Part shown: positions 6,496 through 18,926 of the stretch, piece after piece
How the letters are laid out: each line of letters opens with the position of its first letter
Position numbering within the stretch: the first letter of the stretch is position 1
DNA from: a virus
Reading direction: 5' to 3' (one strand)
Length of the DNA: 20,575 bases
IMG/VR virus record: IMGVR_UViG_3300042305_001538
Span: 1 to 20,575 of that record
Made by a program: the position numbers and the translations under genes
Notes under the pieces: generated by a model
The model's database searches: none
Told to the model about the DNA's origin: nothing
What the model saw: only the letters and a program-made list of their open reading frames with translations

Positions 6496-7068
6496 CTACT
6501 TATAATATCTCAAGTAAACAGACTCCGGGTCATGGTAAAAGTTGAGAGGTAAAATCTTATCAGGCATCCTTCGAACAATCTTTGGATTGTTGTAAGGGAA
6601 AGGATACCATTTGCGATCTCTCATGGTGATCCAATAAGAGAAGAGATATGAATTAACCTGCCGGCGATATCGAGTCATATCGATATCTAGTCTATACTTC
6701 TTAATCTTCTTCTCTGTTCTCTTCTCGCAATCCCATTCCAGTTCAATCGTATCTTTAAAAGCCTGAATAACTCGTTCTTGAGAATAATTCGTCCCTGCAC
6801 ACCACTTCTCAATCATAGTAATCCCGGCATCAGCCTTTGACCACAGAGGATGCTTCTCTAAGAACTGATCCATATGACAGGACTCGTGGACTAGAATATC
6901 TACCCAATCCTCTTTTTGTGCTGCTACTTTGAGATCAGTGTCGTCAAAATAACCTGAGCATTTAATGCCATCAGTCTCAACAAGCTTGTCAGGTACAAGA
7001 TGAAAACCGATGCCATGCTTTTGGCAGTCTACGGCAATCTTTGCTACAAGCTTTTGAACATTTGTCAT
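6496..7068 (-). CDS. Putative zinc metallopeptidase (HExxH), 190 aa
   Basis: Residues 61-65 read HESCH within ILVHESCHMDQFLEKH, a clean HExxH zinc-binding and catalytic motif. A later acidic helix (TIELEWDCEKRTEKK, about residues 107-121) could supply the third zinc ligand, as in gluzincins. The N-terminal part includes a short beta segment (FDDTDLKVAA) of the type that precedes the active-site helix. The substrate is unknown. There is no signal peptide, so it would act in the host cytoplasm or in the virion. It overlaps the upstream SDR gene by ATGA. Peptidases of this compact kind are found as hypothetical proteins in large phages, but I cannot name a family. Confidence 0.65.
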   Translation of the reverse strand: MTNVQKLVAKIAVDCQKHGIGFHLVPDKLVETDGIKCSGYFDDTDLKVAAQKEDWVDILVHESCHMDQFLEKHPLWSKADAGITMIEKWCAGTNYSQERVIQAFKDTIELEWDCEKRTEKKIKKYRLDIDMTRYRRQVNSYLFSYWITMRDRKWYPFPYNNPKIVRRMPDKILPLNFYHDPESVYLRYYK

Positions 7069-7931
7069 ACATCTTGTCCTTGTGAACGAGCTAAAGCTAC
7101 AATATCTCTTACAAGTGAATCTCTAGTGTTAGGGAGCTCAAGGCCAAACCTTTTAAGCTTCTCTGTTGACAGTACACAATTAGATCTGTTAGCTTTGGTA
7201 TTAAGATCTTTAAGTTCAATAAACTTCCAGTTTGGATTCTTTAATCCGTGCTTCTCCAGTAACCAAACAACTTCTTCAGCTTTAACCGGCTCGGGATTAA
7301 CGACGTTGTAAATTCCATAATCAGGGCGAGCTGCGATAAACTTTACAATAAACTTATCAAAGTCATTAAGCGAGGTAACAGAGTTAAGCTCGTTAATGAG
7401 AGTATCGTAACCAAGTAACTTTGAAAAATAATTTTTACGAGTTAAGACTCCGGTAAAAGGAATTCTGATTCTCAATCCATAGCACTTATAACCCTTAGCA
7501 AAGGTCTCAAATACATGCTTACATTTTGAGTAATAAGAAGAGTCATTAGAGAACATTCCAAAGTTAGGAACATCTTCTTCAGTATACTCCTTATCGTAGC
7601 CAGAGTAAATGCACCCTGAACCTATATGAATAACAGGGATCGAAAAAGCATTACATATCTTAACCACATTTAACGGATACAAGACATTATAGTTGTAGCA
7701 AAGCTCTTTGTTATCTTCGCAGGCATCGACGTTAGGAACACCTGTATAGCCAGAACAATTAATAACTGTTCTAATATATCTATCGTTCTCGTTTATGAAC
7801 TCCCGAAACTTATCCGGGTCAGTATAATCAAGATCAGCCTGAGAGAAGATTCTATGCTCTATATTATTAGCTCTGAAGTACTGAGCAAGATGATTACCGA
7901 CAAAGCCCTTACCGAGAATAAGATGAAACAT
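7065..7931 (-). CDS. Extended SDR, NAD(P)-dependent nucleotide-sugar epimerase/reductase (RmlD-like)
   Basis: The N-terminus LILGKGFVGNHLAQYFR has the Rossmann GxGxxG motif (G7, G9, G12). VINCSGYTGV follows near residue 55, HIGSGCIYSG at 101-110 provides the catalytic serine region, and Y133-SKC-K137 is the YxxxK active-site pair. The overall layout at 288 aa resembles dTDP-4-dehydrorhamnose reductase (RmlD) and related epimerases. The likely role is making or altering a nucleotide sugar, either for glycosylating phage DNA or virions or for altering the host surface. A phage-encoded glycosyltransferase lies at 16796-17521, but there is no direct evidence that they act together. The exact substrate cannot be read from the sequence. 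Confidence 0.8.
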   Translation of the reverse strand: MFHLILGKGFVGNHLAQYFRANNIEHRIFSQADLDYTDPDKFREFINENDRYIRTVINCSGYTGVPNVDACEDNKELCYNYNVLYPLNVVKICNAFSIPVIHIGSGCIYSGYDKEYTEEDVPNFGMFSNDSSYYSKCKHVFETFAKGYKCYGLRIRIPFTGVLTRKNYFSKLLGYDTLINELNSVTSLNDFDKFIVKFIAARPDYGIYNVVNPEPVKAEEVVWLLEKHGLKNPNWKFIELKDLNTKANRSNCVLSTEKLKRFGLELPNTRDSLVRDIVALARSQGQDV

Positions 7932-7932
7932 A

Positions 7933-7964
7933 GAATATAGTTTATACTAAATTAAACTATATTC
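7933..7964. repeat. Perfect 11-bp inverted repeat between two enzyme genes
   Basis: GAATATAGTTT (7933-7943) and AAACTATATTC (7954-7964) are exact inverted copies separated by 10 nt. The repeat covers the stop codon of the GMP reductase-like gene and ends 2 nt before the SDR start codon. It could be an operator, a weak terminator or an RNA hairpin controlling SDR translation. Confidence 0.6.
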
Positions 7965-8936
7965 AACTTCTTTGAATGCTTCTAAATCCTTACCTCCAGC
8001 ATAAGAAATAGCAGAGGTAAGATCTTGGTGAACCTCTTTAAGCTTTTGCTCGTACGTCATACCATTCATAGGCATTGACAAGGTCCGGCCTTCAATGTTC
8101 TTCTTGTTACCATTCATCGAAGAAGCAGAACCAAAATAAAGCTTCTTAGTAGGATCGGTAGGATCGACCATAGCCGGAGAATCAATACAACGGGCGAACA
8201 TAGAACCAGCCATAACCATATCAGCTCCTGCTACTAAAGCTTTAGCAATGTCTCCGTTACAGGAAATACCTCCGTCAGCGATAATAGCCGGGGTAACCTG
8301 ATCCATAAGCTCTTCTCTTGTCTGAGCAATATCCCTCACTGTCGAAAACATCGGAGAAGCAAAACCTGTCTTATTGTAAGTAATGCATGATGCGCCGCAA
8401 GCAATACCTACTTTAGCAGCTTGGATATAAGGAGCCATTCTGATGTAAGCAGAAGTAGTAGCTATATTACCACCAATAATAAACAAGTCCGGGTTGAAGG
8501 TCTTCTTATAAAGATTTAAATACCGAAGCATTCCCATAGTCTCAGAATGATCTCCATGGGCAACGTCAACAGTGACGAAGTCAAGTCTTAGCTTCTCTTC
8601 GGCAATAGTTGCAATCATGTCTACATCCCTCTTCTTAATACCAACAGAGATAGAGATGAAGGGAAGAAGATCTTTACATTTATTCATCCTACGCATCCAA
8701 TTAAGAGTTTCATCATACTCATAGAACCTATGCATGATATAAAAATAACCATTCTGGGCCAACCACGTAGCCTTGGTCATGTCAATACATGAGGCCATAT
8801 TAGCAGGTACCAAAGGAAGTTTAAATGTAAACTTACCAAAGTCTACAAACGTGTCAGCTTGTGACCGAGATTCAAGTTCAGAATAGTTGGGTACTAAATG
8901 TACGTCTTTATAGTTTAACGATTTCTTCATTTTCAT
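7947..8936 (-). CDS. guaC: GMP reductase / IMP dehydrogenase family enzyme
   Basis: The 329-aa protein is a TIM barrel of the IMPDH/GMPR family without a CBS insert, as in GMP reductase (GMP + NADPH to IMP + ammonia). Supporting motifs are NYKDVHLVP (8-16), TVDVAHGDH (122-130), IIGGNIAT (153-160), the catalytic loop around C184 with T186 two residues later, DGGISCNGDIAKALVAGAD (221-239) and a C-terminal NIEGRT with E282. C184, T186 and E282 fit the Cys/Thr/Glu catalytic set of GMPR. The usual phosphate loop GIGPGSxC is changed to GIACGASC (177-184), which is unusual. The gene overlaps its upstream neighbour by 29 nt. Purine pool adjustment during infection is the likely role. Confidence 0.8.
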   Translation of the reverse strand: MKMKKSLNYKDVHLVPNYSELESRSQADTFVDFGKFTFKLPLVPANMASCIDMTKATWLAQNGYFYIMHRFYEYDETLNWMRRMNKCKDLLPFISISVGIKKRDVDMIATIAEEKLRLDFVTVDVAHGDHSETMGMLRYLNLYKKTFNPDLFIIGGNIATTSAYIRMAPYIQAAKVGIACGASCITYNKTGFASPMFSTVRDIAQTREELMDQVTPAIIADGGISCNGDIAKALVAGADMVMAGSMFARCIDSPAMVDPTDPTKKLYFGSASSMNGNKKNIEGRTLSMPMNGMTYEQKLKEVHQDLTSAISYAGGKDLEAFKEVEYSLI

Positions 8937-14910: not shown

Positions 14911-15261
14911 TTAAGTAATTTGTTCTCTAAGTTCAAGTAATACTTTGATCTCTCTCTCAGACATCTCCATATTGGAAGCTAAGAGAGATATTTTATCATC
15001 CTCTTCAGTCTTCTCTTCTTTGACCTTCTTTATGTATTTGATAAAAGGTACTTTAGATTTAGGATAAAGCTTAAGGAGTAATTTATAATGTAACTCCCTA
15101 TCAATATTGCCTAAACTATTTACACTTTCATTAATAGCTCCACAAATTTGTGGACTAATAAAAGATAGCCACCTGTTAATAAGATATGATATATAACCTT
15201 CAAGTGGTAAGTTACCTTTCTTGTAGGTAGTTATATCCTTTATGTAATCGAATATTGTCAT
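14911..15261 (-). CDS. gp62: Clamp-loader small subunit, T4 gp62-like
   Basis: gp62 with gp44 loads the gp45 sliding clamp on DNA for replication and, in T4, for late transcription. This 116-aa protein resembles the short gp62 of cyanophage-type T4-like phages: MTIFDYIKDITTYKKGNLPL, then YISYLINRWLSFISPQICGA followed by INESVN, the 'LxxxLHYKLLLKLYPKSKVPF' helix with IKYIKK, and a C-terminal SLLASNMEMSEREIKVLLEL. The order 'FDYxKxI...xxLxNRxLSxxxxxxxxxNxxN...xxxxYxxLxxxxxPxxxxxxxxxK' is diagnostic in my memory. T4 gp62 is 187 aa, so this is a compact version. Its ATG overlaps the stop of the damaged homing endonuclease (ATGA). There is no gp44 or gp45 beside it. Confidence 0.8.
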   Translation of the reverse strand: MTIFDYIKDITTYKKGNLPLEGYISYLINRWLSFISPQICGAINESVNSLGNIDRELHYKLLLKLYPKSKVPFIKYIKKVKEEKTEEDDKISLLASNMEMSEREIKVLLELREQIT

Positions 15262-16180
15262 ATATTAAAAGTATAGTGTTGTGTTTTGTATCCTTGTTCT
15301 TTTATAATTTGCTTTTTTGTTACCATGCCCTTAAGAGTTAATCTAACTCTACTTGTTGTAACATTACACATTGATGCAACATATGCTTTAATATCTTTAG
15401 CTTGACACCTGGGATGATCTTTAATGTAAGCAATTATGCTATTTTTTACAATATCTTCAAGCGAAAATTGTGGTAAAACATACCTTATATCATTTTTACT
15501 ATAATATAATTTTTTAAGTTTATTTTGTTTAATAAGTTTATTGAGTCTATCTGATACAATTGTAGTTTTACCTTTACTGTTTATAATATCTTTTACATGT
15601 TCTCTTTTAACGTAGCCGTTTATTTTAACAAACTCTATTATTAGATTATAATCTCTCTCTCTTTTATTATTATAAAAAATACTTTTTGATTGTTGTATTT
15701 TTTGTTTTGTTCTTGATGAAAGTTTATAACAACCTTTAAGGCCCTTGTTCCAAACTTTACGGCCTTTTAGGGATGCTTTAAGTTTTTGACGGGCTGTTTC
15801 TGTCATGGGTATACCTTTATTCCAAGGCGTCTTACCCTTTTTTGCAATACTCATTTTCCGGCAAGATTCGGGATGCATTTTACCGCCACTGCCTCCTTCC
15901 CGGAGATTGCAGTATTGGTCATCATTGAGTGCATCATGTAGTTGTATATGTCGAGCTCTGCTTGATTTAATTCTTCTTGGGTGTTACAAAATTCAAGTAT
16001 AGAACGCTTCCAATGACCGTGATATTTGTTTGAAAAGAAGCTGTCGCTAAAAATTTTACCAGAACCTATGTACCCATCATCAATAGTTCCAACATGTTGA
16101 CCTATATACTTCTTGTATTTTTTAGCTTCTGGATGTGTATTTTCCCAAAGATAAACAAATCCGTGATATAAATCGTTCAC
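15258..16180 (-). pseudogene. GIY-YIG homing endonuclease split by a frameshift
   Basis: Two overlapping reading frames together make one free-standing homing endonuclease. The first (GTG 16180 to 15851, 109 aa) is the GIY-YIG nuclease domain: GFVYLWENTH, then YKKYIGQHVG with DGYIGSG, and a helix ILEFCNTQEELNQAELDIYN. The second (15878 to 15258) has two NUMOD3 DNA-binding motifs (MSIAKKGKTPWNKG and LKASLKGRKVWNKGLKG) and two winged-helix-like segments. Reading the second frame backwards past its first ATG gives YCNLREGGSGGKMHPESC, the classic motif joining the two domains, so the original frame is interrupted near 15912-15920. One missing base (or two extra) would restore it. The element is visibly more AT-rich than its neighbours. 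Sequencing error or functional frameshifting are alternatives. Confidence 0.85.
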
Positions 16181-16185
16181 ATATA

Positions 16186-16193
16186 TATTTATA
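16186..16193 (-). promoter_or_regulatory. TATAAATA late-promoter-like box
   Basis: The minus strand reads TATAAATA, then TATAT and the GTG at 16180 that starts the nuclease domain. The TAA (16189-16191) is the stop codon of the DUF366 gene. The endonuclease thus has the same start arrangement as the virion genes. Confidence 0.5.
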
Positions 16194-16776
16194 CCAAAAT
16201 TTTGGTAGTTGCAACGAAGACATCCTTTAAGATACTATAGAAAATGCCTTCAACGTCTGTCATGAAGTGACGAGCTTGGTCATCATCAAGTTCGGTTGAG
16301 TAGGCAAAGTCGGGTGCTCTTTCACCAGCATTGATATTAATACCGAGGTGGATCAAGACGGCTCCATTCTTCTCAGCTGCAATACTAACTGAAGCCTTCT
16401 TAGGGCCATTATCAGTCTCGATCATGATATCATCACCATCTACATAACCTTCCTTGTTGAGATACTTTCCGCAGAGCAAAGAGCCAACCTGAGCATTAAG
16501 TAAACGTTGGAACAAGACACCACCCCAGATATCCTTATTAGGAATCTCCATAATAAAGTTCATAGCCATATCTGAATAGATGTAGTCCTTATTGAGAGAA
16601 TCTTCCAAGTCAATAAGGTTAGCTGTTACTTCCATTGGAGCAATAAACGAAACAATATTACCTAATGGGTTAACTTCTTTCTTAAAAAACTTGTAAGCAA
16701 AGCGGTCGTGGATCTGAACTCCGCCGTATAAATCTTCACCGAATACTTCTTTTAGTAGTTGTCTATTAATAATCAT
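16189..16776 (-). CDS. DUF366-family protein, 195 aa
   Basis: The pattern matches DUF366 (COG2029) proteins known from archaea and some bacteria: IHDRFAYKFF (residues 22-31), GNIVSFIAPMEV (38-50) then LIDLEDSL, a YSDMAMNFIMEIP segment, FQRLLNAQVGSLL, YVDGDDIMIE, KKASVSIAAEKNGAVLIHLG followed by ININ, and a terminal VFVATTKILV. The HxxxAYxxF..G.xIVxFxGPxxV..xxxVDLED order is characteristic in my memory. I know of no firmly established function for this family. Here it is the fourth gene of the queC operon, 19 nt after the glycosyltransferase, so a role in 7-deazaguanine metabolism is a reasonable inference. The residues repeated across the family (His, Asp, Glu, Arg) could be catalytic. Confidence 0.8.
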   Translation of the reverse strand: MIINRQLLKEVFGEDLYGGVQIHDRFAYKFFKKEVNPLGNIVSFIAPMEVTANLIDLEDSLNKDYIYSDMAMNFIMEIPNKDIWGGVLFQRLLNAQVGSLLCGKYLNKEGYVDGDDIMIETDNGPKKASVSIAAEKNGAVLIHLGININAGERAPDFAYSTELDDDQARHFMTDVEGIFYSILKDVFVATTKILV

Positions 16777-16795
16777 AGTGTATAAAATATAAAGG

Positions 16796-17521
16796 CTATT
16801 CAGACTTCTTCAAGGCATTTTGCCAACTATCTTTAAAAATCTTATTAGACTCTTCCCATTCTGGAGTCATAAACGAGTTGCCCAGACCGTGATGCAGAAC
16901 TGAAATAGGCATTGTACCCATCTTAAGCTTCTTTTCATTAGCCAATAAACAGGAAGCAATATCATAGTGATGAAACTTATGCCGTTCATCAAACTTCCAA
17001 TCAGCTTCTAAAGCTTTTTCAACATCTACGGCCAGAAACAGTCCATCGAGTACCAGACAGCGCTGAGGAGTCGGGCCAAAAAGGGTGGTAATTTGTCGGG
17101 AACTATCTACTTTGATCTGATTGCCTTCTTGCCAACATAAAGGGTGACTTACCGAACCCGAAAACGATTCACGAGGCGCACATGTATGCCACAAATTCTT
17201 ATCTTGAATAGAGAACTGAGCACTACCAGCAAGCCCGGTAATATCCCAAGGTGATTCGTTTAACTTCTCAACTAAGAATAAATCATGAATCTCTAAATCA
17301 TCATGAACAAATAATACAATCTTATCTCTGTTCTTCTCAATCAAGTAACGATTGTAAACTTCAGGTAAACCTGTTGAGTTATCTTTTACAATTTCAAAGT
17401 CAAATAAAGCTCCATTATAACGAATATCGTTAAGAAGTTCTAAAGATAGGGCAAGAGGTCTCTGTTTAAACTCTTCTAGAGTCTTAGTCTTTGTTGCTGT
17501 TACGAGTAATACTTGTTTCAT
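16796..17521 (-). CDS. Glycosyltransferase, GT-A fold (family 2-like)
   Basis: The motif STGLPEVYNRYLIE (49-62) followed by KIVLFVHDDLEI (67-78, with the HDD metal-site triad at 73-75) and DITGLAGS is typical of the 'Glyco_tranf_2_5' type of GT-A glycosyltransferases. A later HHYDIASC resembles the second acceptor-side acidic motif. At 241 aa it is one catalytic domain with no membrane segment, so it would act in the cytoplasm. Acceptor candidates are modified DNA bases, virion proteins or host glycans. Its operon position (ATGA overlap with the glutamine amidotransferase) favours a link to nucleotide or DNA modification, but that is inference. The SDR at 7065-7931 could supply an altered sugar nucleotide. 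Confidence 0.82.
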   Translation of the reverse strand: MKQVLLVTATKTKTLEEFKQRPLALSLELLNDIRYNGALFDFEIVKDNSTGLPEVYNRYLIEKNRDKIVLFVHDDLEIHDLFLVEKLNESPWDITGLAGSAQFSIQDKNLWHTCAPRESFSGSVSHPLCWQEGNQIKVDSSRQITTLFGPTPQRCLVLDGLFLAVDVEKALEADWKFDERHKFHHYDIASCLLANEKKLKMGTMPISVLHHGLGNSFMTPEWEESNKIFKDSWQNALKKSE

Positions 17522-18162
17522 AAAAGGAAGTACGGGTTGTCGTATTTGAAGGTCTGATATTCTTGAAAACCCATTCCATTAAATTTAAATACAATTCCAT
17601 CTTTATCAACTGGAGAAGAGCCTTCAAAGGCAACAGAACAAAACGAATCTTCGTTCATATGAAGAGAGGAACCAGCTTTGACTAAAAAGATATCTCCGGT
17701 AATAGAATTATAGATCCAAGAGGTTAACAAACCCTTATACTTTTCGTATGTCTGTTTAAAGTTACCATCTGACCAACATAAATGGTAAGGTATCATAGCA
17801 GAGTCGGTATTAAAAGCCATACAAGTAGCAATTGTCTTTAGTTCTTGAAAGTTCTGAATGATACCGTTATGCCCTACAAACCAATGCTTATAAGAGAAAG
17901 GATGTGTAGTATTAGGAGAGAAGTCTTGACTTGTTGTATTGGTAGGAGCCCGAGAATGAAACAAACAATAGATGGGAAACTCTTCAGTCTCTTTTAATTC
18001 CTTTTTAAGATAGTCAAGCTCAAATACTTCCTTCTGTTTAAGTAGAACAAAATTGTTCTTAGTGACACCTAAGAACCCTGATGATTGATAACCTCTATCG
18101 AGTCCTAGCTTATAGAGTTCATGAGCCTTCTCAAGAGAAGACGAGCCACTTATCGCACACAT
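17518..18162 (-). CDS. Class II glutamine amidotransferase (GATase_6 type)
   Basis: The domain releases ammonia from glutamine using an N-terminal cysteine. I take the ATG at 18160-18162 (not an ATG 7 codons upstream), since it places Cys at position 2 (MCAISG), overlaps the queC stop as TAATG, and gives 214 aa. Motifs: RGYQSSGFLG (23-32), HSRAPTN (69-75), NTTHPF (84-89), VGHNGIIQNFQEL (96-108) and TDSAM (119-123). These match the GlmS/PurF-type glutaminase domain; no synthase domain follows. In Crenarchaeota a similar domain is fused to QueC and makes archaeosine (G+) from preQ0. Here the same two parts are separate but coupled genes. A G+-type DNA modification is therefore likely, though a different ammonia acceptor is possible. 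Confidence 0.85.
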   Translation of the reverse strand: MCAISGSSSLEKAHELYKLGLDRGYQSSGFLGVTKNNFVLLKQKEVFELDYLKKELKETEEFPIYCLFHSRAPTNTTSQDFSPNTTHPFSYKHWFVGHNGIIQNFQELKTIATCMAFNTDSAMIPYHLCWSDGNFKQTYEKYKGLLTSWIYNSITGDIFLVKAGSSLHMNEDSFCSVAFEGSSPVDKDGIVFKFNGMGFQEYQTFKYDNPYFLL

Positions 18163-18890
18163 TAAGACATTATAGGCTGACAACCATACTTGTTCCAGTC
18201 AATGTCTACGGCATACTTAACCGGGTCAATTAACTTTGCCTTTACCCAACCCTGAATACGACTTGAACAGGCCGGACAAGTACCACAAGCTATCTCTTCT
18301 CCATTGTAGCAAGTTAAGGTCTTAGAAAAATCAGCTCCTAATTCAATTCCGTATTTAAAAATCTCTTCTTTAGAGAGCTTGATAAGAGGAGCCTCAACTT
18401 GAATCTTATAAAGTCTATTGAGGGCTAAACAGTCATTGATCCTTTTTAAGAATTCCCTCGTACCGTCCCAGTGCCCGGAGGTGTCATCTACCAAAGCTGC
18501 TCCATATAGAACAGTTTCACAGCCTCGAGATTCAGCATAAGCAGCTGCAATTGAAAGCATTGTCATATTGCGATTAGGTACGTGGGACTTATTCTGAGCC
18601 TCCCCAATAACGTCTCGCATCTTAGGTACATCGATGTCTGGGTTAGTAAGAGCAGAAGAGTCTGCAAGCTTGGCATAAAAAGTCAGATCAACAATTGTAT
18701 GCTGCTGAATCTTCTGACCTTCCCCGACTCCTAAGTCAGCTGTATAGTTAATAGCCTTTTCAATCTCAAGCTTATGGCGTTGATTGTAGTTATAGGTTAA
18801 ACAATAAACCTCTTCAAAGTTCTTAATAGCATGATGAATAATAACTGTACTATCAGCACCACCAGAAAAAATAACTACACATTTAGACAT
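18162..18890 (-). CDS. queC: QueC, 7-cyano-7-deazaguanine (preQ0) synthase
   Basis: QueC converts 7-carboxy-7-deazaguanine (CDG) to preQ0 with ATP and ammonia. The PP-loop ATP site SGGADST lies at residues 9-15, VPNRNMTMLSIAAAYAE at 104-120, and DDTSGHWDGTREFL at 135-148 (compare the DxSGYPDCRPEF pattern of QueC). The four zinc cysteines C194, C202, C205 and C208 are all present (C-x7-C-x2-C-x2-C). The 242-aa length is slightly above the usual 220-230. In phages QueC serves 7-deazaguanine DNA modification (with DpdA) or tRNA queuosine. It begins the operon queC - amidotransferase - glycosyltransferase - DUF366. Its ATG lies 8 nt from a TATAAT box. Confidence 0.93.
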   Translation of the reverse strand: MSKCVVIFSGGADSTVIIHHAIKNFEEVYCLTYNYNQRHKLEIEKAINYTADLGVGEGQKIQQHTIVDLTFYAKLADSSALTNPDIDVPKMRDVIGEAQNKSHVPNRNMTMLSIAAAYAESRGCETVLYGAALVDDTSGHWDGTREFLKRINDCLALNRLYKIQVEAPLIKLSKEEIFKYGIELGADFSKTLTCYNGEEIACGTCPACSSRIQGWVKAKLIDPVKYAVDIDWNKYGCQPIMS

Positions 18891-18892
18891 AT

Positions 18893-18926
18893 GTAATCAT
18901 TATAGATTACTTTAGAAGGAAATCAA
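18893..18926 (-). promoter_or_regulatory. Sigma70-like promoter of the queC operon with symmetric arms round the -10
   Basis: The minus strand has TTGATT (18921-18926), a 16-nt spacer and TATAAT (18899-18904). TATAAT is flanked by GTAATC and GATTAC, an exact 6-bp inverted repeat (18893-18910). The ATG is 8 nt from TATAAT, leaving a leader of only one or two bases. TTGATT overlaps the last codons of the fibre gene. The queC group would thus be early or middle, unlike the TATAAATA genes. Confidence 0.5.

Follow-up and report, generated by a model that had tools for sequence, protein, structure and literature searches.

A conserved T4-like phage gene cassette that probably makes and decorates 7-deazaguanine for phage DNA

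Known 7-deazaguanine systems and the four-gene locus

The phage pathways for 7-deazaguanine in DNA that are described in PMC6884629 end at 7-cyano-7-deazaguanine (preQ0), 7-aminomethyl-7-deazaguanine (preQ1), 7-amido-7-deazaguanine (ADG) or the archaeosine base (G+). According to the same source, Gat-QueC and the transglycosylase DpdA of Enterobacteria phage 9g together yield dG+, and the DNA of phage nt-1 (Schizotequatrovirus) contains dPreQ0 and some dG+. The DNA of 6E351A contains dPreQ1 (PMC12028318). Here we describe a locus of four genes, encoding QueC, an unfused class II glutamine amidotransferase (GAT), a glycosyltransferase (GT) and a DUF366 protein, on the IMG/VR virus record IMGVR_UViG_3300042305_001538. 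The stretch analysed (the window) is this entire record, 20,575 bases, and is a fragment of a T4-like phage genome. To our knowledge, the phage 7-deazaguanine derivatives that became known later carry small substituents only. DNA glycosylation is established on hydroxymethylcytosine (hmC) and hydroxymethyluracil (hmU). On balance, we consider the four genes to be a conserved cassette with which T4-like phages make and decorate a 7-deazaguanine for their own DNA. With its unfused GAT, dedicated GT and DUF366 protein, the cassette appears to be a new form of 7-deazaguanine DNA modification. Gene identities, cassette conservation, the linkage and co-occurrence with preQ0-pathway and transglycosylase genes, and the fold and operon context of DUF366 were computed directly.

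The genes are consecutive on the minus strand, running from 18890 to 16189:

18162..18890, minus strand: queC, 7-cyano-7-deazaguanine (preQ0) synthase family (PF06508, TIGR00364, motifs)
17518..18162, minus strand: gat, unfused class II glutamine amidotransferase, translationally coupled to queC via TAATG (PF13522, catalytic residues)
16796..17521, minus strand: gt, GT-A fold glycosyltransferase (Glyco_tranf_2_5-like), ATGA overlap with gat (AlphaFold2 (AF2) model, HDD motif)
16189..16776, minus strand: DUF366 protein, biotin/lipoate protein ligase fold (PF04017, AF2 model)
18899..18926, minus strand: promoter-like site TTGATT-N16-TATAAT ahead of queC (10 of 12 matches; not above chance)

A first-pass annotation of this DNA had described the four minus-strand genes with a TAATG overlap, an ATGA overlap and 19 nucleotides between the GT and DUF366 genes, and we verified each of these. 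It had also placed the genes behind a promoter-like site. This did not hold up, as TTGATT-16-TATAAT is one of 21 such matches with 18.4 expected, no better than chance.

Like 9g, the locus combines QueC with a class II GAT, and its relatives encode preQ0 genes and a DNA transglycosylase; the expected product is preQ0 or G+ in DNA. In 9g, however, the GAT is fused at the N-terminus, whereas here a gene of its own, placed after queC, encodes it. Moreover, the cassette adds GT and DUF366, and its relatives have a transglycosylase of a different sequence family. KVP40, also T4-like, has an unfused GAT directly after QueC (KVP40.0124-0125), with folE and QueF nearby. We identified unfused class II GAT genes in this position in two isolated T4-like phages, at L069:15714-16322 (KVP40.0125) and L071:10720-11358 (pf16_77), and in both KVP40 and pf16 the QueC-GAT pair adjoins folE and a putative DpdA2 gene. 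Thus, a split Gat-QueC is not unique to the clade of the window. KVP40 and nt-1 differ from it in that no GT or DUF366 was recognised and that their transglycosylase is putatively DpdA2. In PMC6884629, ArcS is given as the amidotransferase for the KVP40-related phage nt-1.

Flavobacterium phage immuto (MW353176) and the Campylobacter CP220-type phages encode a transglycosylase 40-45% identical to that of one relative (L529), along with QueD, QueE, FolE and QueF, and in immuto a formyltransferase adjoins the transglycosylase. The immuto region examined, in contrast, has no GAT-GT-DUF366 cassette. The DUF366 protein shares its family and fold with PH1223 (2ddz) and with proteins of the Pelotomaculum and Gastranaerophilales preQ0 operons, which lie near QueC, QueD, QueE and FolE. 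The bacterial genes differ in belonging to cellular genomes, with QueA also present in Bacillota, and in having an archaeal-like partner QueC (FPDN for YPDC). In the glucosyl-hmC system of T4 and for other glycosylated bases of phage DNA, as predicted here, a phage GT adds a sugar to a base in phage DNA, but the base here would be a purine analogue, not hmC or hmU.

Conservation of the cassette among viral loci

Alignments of GAT and of GT served as queries against viral contigs, and removal of near-duplicates left 93 loci. QueC-GAT-GT-DUF366 was found on one strand and in the same order in 50 of the 93 non-redundant loci, usually with coupled starts. The others were partial forms, some of them cut by contig ends: GAT-GT-DUF366 (8), QueC-GAT-GT (6), GAT-GT (3), QueC-GAT (3), GT-DUF366 (9) and GT alone (14). 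The order persists as GAT identity drops to ~32%, and the start-stop overlap of GAT and GT is conserved in divergent loci. Given this recurrence down to such low identity, we infer that QueC-GAT-GT-DUF366 is a selected cassette. Contigs 3300027770_000027 (227 kb) and 3300032285_004054 (218 kb) of the clade likewise have all four genes.

Other genes also occur within or beside the cassette. Loci L257-L295 have two small conserved genes between GAT and GT, encoding proteins of ~125 and ~87 amino acids, the longer of which has a C-terminal hydrophobic stretch and the motif AIDYINRDIVNVK. Homing endonuclease genes have invaded the cassette locus. In the window (15258-16180, minus strand), two overlapping frames hold the GIY-YIG and NUMOD3 portions of one such endonuclease. 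Since the GIY-YIG frame is single and longer (270 amino acids) in L056 and L057, the window copy may be frameshifted.

QueC and the unfused amidotransferase

The window QueC matches PF06508 with 196 bits (cut-off 22) and passes the NCBIfam equivalog TIGR00364 (176.8 vs 150.3 bits). Three canonical motifs (SGGxDS, YxQxHxxE and VPxRN) are kept as SGGADS, YNQRHKLE and VPNRN, and the four cysteines of the C(x)8CxxCxxC zinc motif are present (CYNGEEIACGTCPAC) with a first spacing of 7. The canonical substrate motif YPDC reads HWDG in this protein; across 64 distinct QueC relatives the position is Y/F/H-W-D-C/G/A/T.

We assigned the GAT start to the ATG of TAATG (18162-17518, 214 amino acids, MCAISG...) and not to the mechanically called TTG at 18183. 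The protein matches PF13522 (GATase_6) above the cut-off, and its family profile matches the glutaminase domains of GlmS and PurF. All of the class II catalytic residues are present (C2, R23, H69, N99-G100 and D120; motifs RG23, HSR69, HNG98 and TDS119). QueC and GAT are not a single Gat-QueC polypeptide but separate genes with a TAATG overlap, and there is good reason to think that this GAT serves QueC. As Gat-QueC and DpdA of 9g yield dG+ (PMC6884629), QueC-GAT here most likely leads to preQ0 and/or G+.

preQ0-pathway genes and a transglycosylase in related phages

The first-pass annotation had called the pathway incomplete, with no DpdA, QueD, QueE or FolE in the window. Indeed, none is among the listed genes of the window, which is a fragment, and none of QueD, QueE and FolE is on the fragments of its clade. 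In more distant phages, however, we identified QueD, QueE and FolE and a homologue of DpdA-type transglycosylases. Absence of a DpdA homologue, which the first-pass annotation would have counted against its reading, was checked in relatives, and at least one of them has such a gene: G022 (222 kb, distant) encodes FolE, QueD, QueE and QueF, and a DpdA-type transglycosylase homologue (8.8-9.7 kb). Its QueC-GAT-GT genes are contiguous, between UvsX-like and helicase genes and with a DNA polymerase gene nearby, and its DUF366 gene is elsewhere. G018 (77 kb) has FolE, QueD, QueE, QueC, GAT-GT and DUF366, and G024 and G027 have FolE, QueD, QueE and DUF366. In L378-L380, QueE and DUF366 are at most 4 kb apart.

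Homologues of the transglycosylase are also encoded in L529 and L537, beside FolE, QueF and DNA polymerase. The protein shares 44.5% identity with a protein of Flavobacterium phage immuto that is annotated as DNA guanine transglycosylase (DpdA), and ~40% with proteins of Campylobacter CP220-type phages. In two viral loci, L326 and L336, its gene and that of the GT overlap, and in L326 a DUF366-like gene comes next. In many QueD-QueC-QueE-FolE phage clusters, the transglycosylase gene adjoins QueC. The family was located solely via the neighbourhood of FolE: neither phrog_887, phrog_10773 and the 9g/KVP40 DpdA profiles (no match in the clade) nor a search for the DSG motif detected a transglycosylase. 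The tRNA-guanine transglycosylase (TGT) model PF01702 matched nothing in 35 contigs, yet it does not match the 9g DpdA either, and we dropped this negative.

FolE contigs linked these genes to the clade of the window by co-occurrence. In detail, contigs L528-L545 (71-76% identity) came from 17 samples, 7 of which also hold window-clade cassette contigs, compared with 0 of 52 control samples with other FolE relatives (Fisher p ~2e-5). This suggests that FolE belongs to the gene content of window-clade phages, together with the transglycosylase and QueF that accompany it in L529 and L537. We consider it likely that the 7-deazaguanine pathway targets DNA.

In L092:8933-12535 (G022) and L529:2261-5132, the transglycosylase clusters with a formyltransferase-like gene (PF00551 in L529), a kinase-like gene and QueF. 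This cluster resembles that of phage immuto and suggests a formylated preQ1-type base in the G022 and L529 phages.

DUF366 and the 7-deazaguanine pathway

The window DUF366 protein matches PF04017 with 82 bits (cut-off 29.9). Its AF2 model has a predicted local distance difference test score (pLDDT) of 93.6, and the closest PDB match is PH1223 (2ddz), a structure of the DUF366 family that has been available since 2007. Foldseek also matched the fold to LplA (1x2g, E 2e-6) and biotin protein ligases (E ~1e-5). A profile search of the PDB returned 2ddz as the single significant match, with no match to biotin or lipoate protein ligases at sequence level.

The bacterial context of DUF366 is informative. 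In 37 Bacillota loci, mostly ~1.5 kb wide per side, QueE is beside DUF366 in 35, FolE in 34, QueD in 31 and QueC in 29, and QueC adjoins DUF366 in all 33 Gastranaerophilales loci. Among phage loci, 60 distinct DUF366 proteins are neighboured by QueC or GAT, and 59 of these keep the signature GDD...KxSVS, all but L244, a truncated frame; none of the 9 neighboured by GT only has it. The association has p ~2e-10 if relatedness is ignored; owing to kinship the contrast comprises fewer than 9 independent events, with at least two different sequence types involved. DUF366 is thus tied to the 7-deazaguanine pathway by its place inside bacterial preQ0 operons and by a phage motif kept only with QueC or GAT, and it is very probably a member of this pathway. 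An earlier guess that placed it there is supported by the same two lines. From the first relatives, DUF366 had looked like a passenger of the gp62/GroES block, a view that we abandoned in the light of the bacterial operons and the test of the motif. A DUF366 match in Microcystis phage MaAM05 is among cellular-type genes and uninformative.

As the fold is adenylate-forming and 7-carboxy-7-deazaguanine (CDG) is a carboxylate, we guessed at CDG activation or deazaguanine acyl transfer. Activation of a carboxylate as an adenylate, with CDG as the obvious candidate, is a tentative assignment from the modelled fold, and we would not call it likely.

In the Bacillota sample, QueF scored above the cut-off in 4 of 44 DUF366-positive genomes, compared with 107 of 354 others (p 0.002); weak QueF matches beside DUF366 were not counted, as their positions coincide with FolE. 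QueA is present in 385 of the 398 genomes, DUF366-positive ones included. With QueA present and QueF mostly undetected (40 of 44), the DUF366-positive Bacillota appear to have a gap between preQ0 and preQ1. We do not favour DUF366 as a plain replacement for QueF: QueF is rarer in DUF366-positive genomes, but G022 has both. Bacillota loci L121-L127 and L137-L166 are preQ0 operons with DUF366 and an archaeal-like QueC (FPDN for YPDC), and most of their genomes have no QueF while encoding QueA.

The glycosyltransferase and its acceptor

The window GT reached 19.2 bits against PF13712, under the cut-off of 27, and its relatives in L343 (32 bits) and L340 (43.4 bits) exceed this cut-off. The AF2 model (pLDDT 92.5) has a GT-A fold. 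Its best PDB fold matches are majastridin (2qgi/2nxv, E 8e-9), followed by B4GALNT1, TarP and RmlT; T4 DNA glucosyltransferase is absent from the 50 best. An acidic, DxD-like HDD motif is present in 97 of 97 distinct relatives.

Loci L253-L255 have a nucleotide-sugar epimerase gene inserted between GAT and GT, as would be expected if the GT used a phage-tailored sugar donor. Together with the coupling to GAT and to the transglycosylase (L326, L336), this favours a deazaguanine base in DNA as the acceptor, although we hold the chances that GT acts on such a base to be about even. RmlD-like nucleotide-sugar reductase genes occur in the window (7065-7931, minus strand) and in G022 (179482-180456), and it is possible that they supply a sugar donor in these phages.

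Weighing the alternatives

Several observations weigh against a cassette that makes and decorates a base for phage DNA. No FolE, QueD, QueE or known DpdA was found in the window, nor in the contigs of its clade, which reach 55 kb; the window is itself a fragment. The transglycosylase family aligned weakly to the 9g DpdA (hhalign E 0.0095, probability 4%, over DSGAF-like and C-terminal parts) and to the solved DNA-guanine transglycosylase 7ui4 (E 0.37). Because these alignments are weak, the assignment draws mainly on annotation, adjacency to QueC and the overlaps in L326 and L336. Thermococcales DUF366 genes are mostly away from que genes, with QueC within reach in 1 of 14 loci. E. coli QueC needs residue Y131, for which Phe substitutes only partly (PMC13329287), and the equivalent residue is His in the window QueC (motif HWDG), so that the product or rate of the enzyme may differ. 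Finally, GT relatives occur without QueC or GAT in 23 of the 93 loci, and the phages also carry other glycosyltransferases.

These last two points would fit a scheme in which QueC and GAT make preQ0 or G+ for DNA and GT, perhaps with DUF366, acts elsewhere, on a virion protein, the host surface or another base. Adjacency to QueC-GAT would then be conserved gene order only. In 14 of the 23 loci there is also no recognisable DUF366, fold relatives of the GT glycosylate glycans and teichoic acids, several further glycosyltransferase-like genes can be read from the sequence of G022, and the window cassette comes after a tail-fibre-like gene. Against this, QueC-GAT-GT stay together in G022, distant from DUF366 and structural genes. 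In addition, GT shares an overlap with the transglycosylase gene in L326 and L336, and divergent loci maintain the start-stop overlap of GAT and GT. We regard a role of the GT elsewhere as rather unlikely. Alternatively, the cassette could act on tRNA of the host or phage during infection by boosting or altering its queuosine or archaeosine, with a DUF366 derived from bacterial queuosine operons. DUF366 does occur in preQ0 operons of bacteria that encode QueA, and mannosyl- and galactosyl-queuosine occur in animal tRNA. However, the transglycosylase of the relatives is homologous to one annotated as DNA-acting, PF01702 detected no TGT in relatives (it also misses the 9g DpdA), and QueC-GAT-GT of G022 are amid DNA replication genes; a tRNA role is therefore improbable.

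QueC, perhaps with DUF366, might also conjugate deazaguanine to protein as a counter-defence, comparable to Cap9 (CBASS) and QatC (Qat), as QueC-family deazaguanylation of proteins has precedent (PMC13329287, PMC13279940). The DUF366 fold is of the protein-ligase type, and when the four cassette proteins were scanned with PADLOC, QueC alone gave a match, to the QueC model. Yet this QueC is of the canonical type, above the TIGR00364 cut-off and with three canonical motifs, and the FolE, QueD, QueE, QueF and transglycosylase genes of relatives indicate a pathway for a base in DNA. We consider protein deazaguanylation very improbable and retain the modification of phage DNA as the preferred explanation.

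Other genes of the window

The T4-like content of the window includes a portal of the gp20 type, whose top matches come from cyanophages and relatives of T4, and genes resembling those of the clamp-loader protein gp62 and of GroES. ThyX and dCMP deaminase genes were identified by reading the sequence. A GMP reductase-like gene (7947-8936, minus strand; NF003966, E 3.6e-88) is retained in the close relatives L003-L006 and L011-L013, and might serve the guanine nucleotide pool of a phage with altered guanine. An Rfam search of the window found no RNA family.

Proposed pathway and implications

In the pathway that we propose, FolE, QueD and QueE of the host or phage would provide CDG. QueC, with ammonia from the separate GAT subunit, would convert CDG to preQ0, and perhaps preQ0 to the G+ amidine, like the 9g Gat-QueC. 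The phage would also encode, at another locus, a DpdA-type DNA-guanine transglycosylase that exchanges guanine in DNA for the modified base, to which GT would next attach a sugar. DUF366 may, as our leading guess, activate a carboxylate (candidate CDG) as an adenylate. The modified phage DNA would withstand host restriction enzymes. Judging from sequence, the cassette probably yields a glycosylated base. The full scheme, in which glycosylated 7-deazaguanine arises in phage DNA through QueC-GAT, a dedicated GT and a DUF366 that activates the deazaguanine carboxylate, is plausible but somewhat less than likely. The first-pass annotation had proposed that a preQ0- or G+-type base replaces some guanines and is perhaps glycosylated. 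The comparative evidence for this is strong as regards the base, and leaves preQ0, G+, preQ1 and a glycosylated form as candidate products.

In a partial search of the open-access literature, we came across neither a glycosylated 7-deazaguanine in DNA nor a function assigned to DUF366. If the proposed pathway is true, the GT-bearing cassette extends DNA glycosylation to a purine analogue and represents a new shield against restriction. It would add a purine hypermodification that bears a sugar, and it would give DUF366 its first function, in phages as well as in bacterial preQ0 operons. The function of DUF366 is now directly testable, and it may bear on how queuosine is completed in those Bacillota that have preQ0 operons and QueA and in which QueF was not detected (40 of 44 DUF366-positive genomes).

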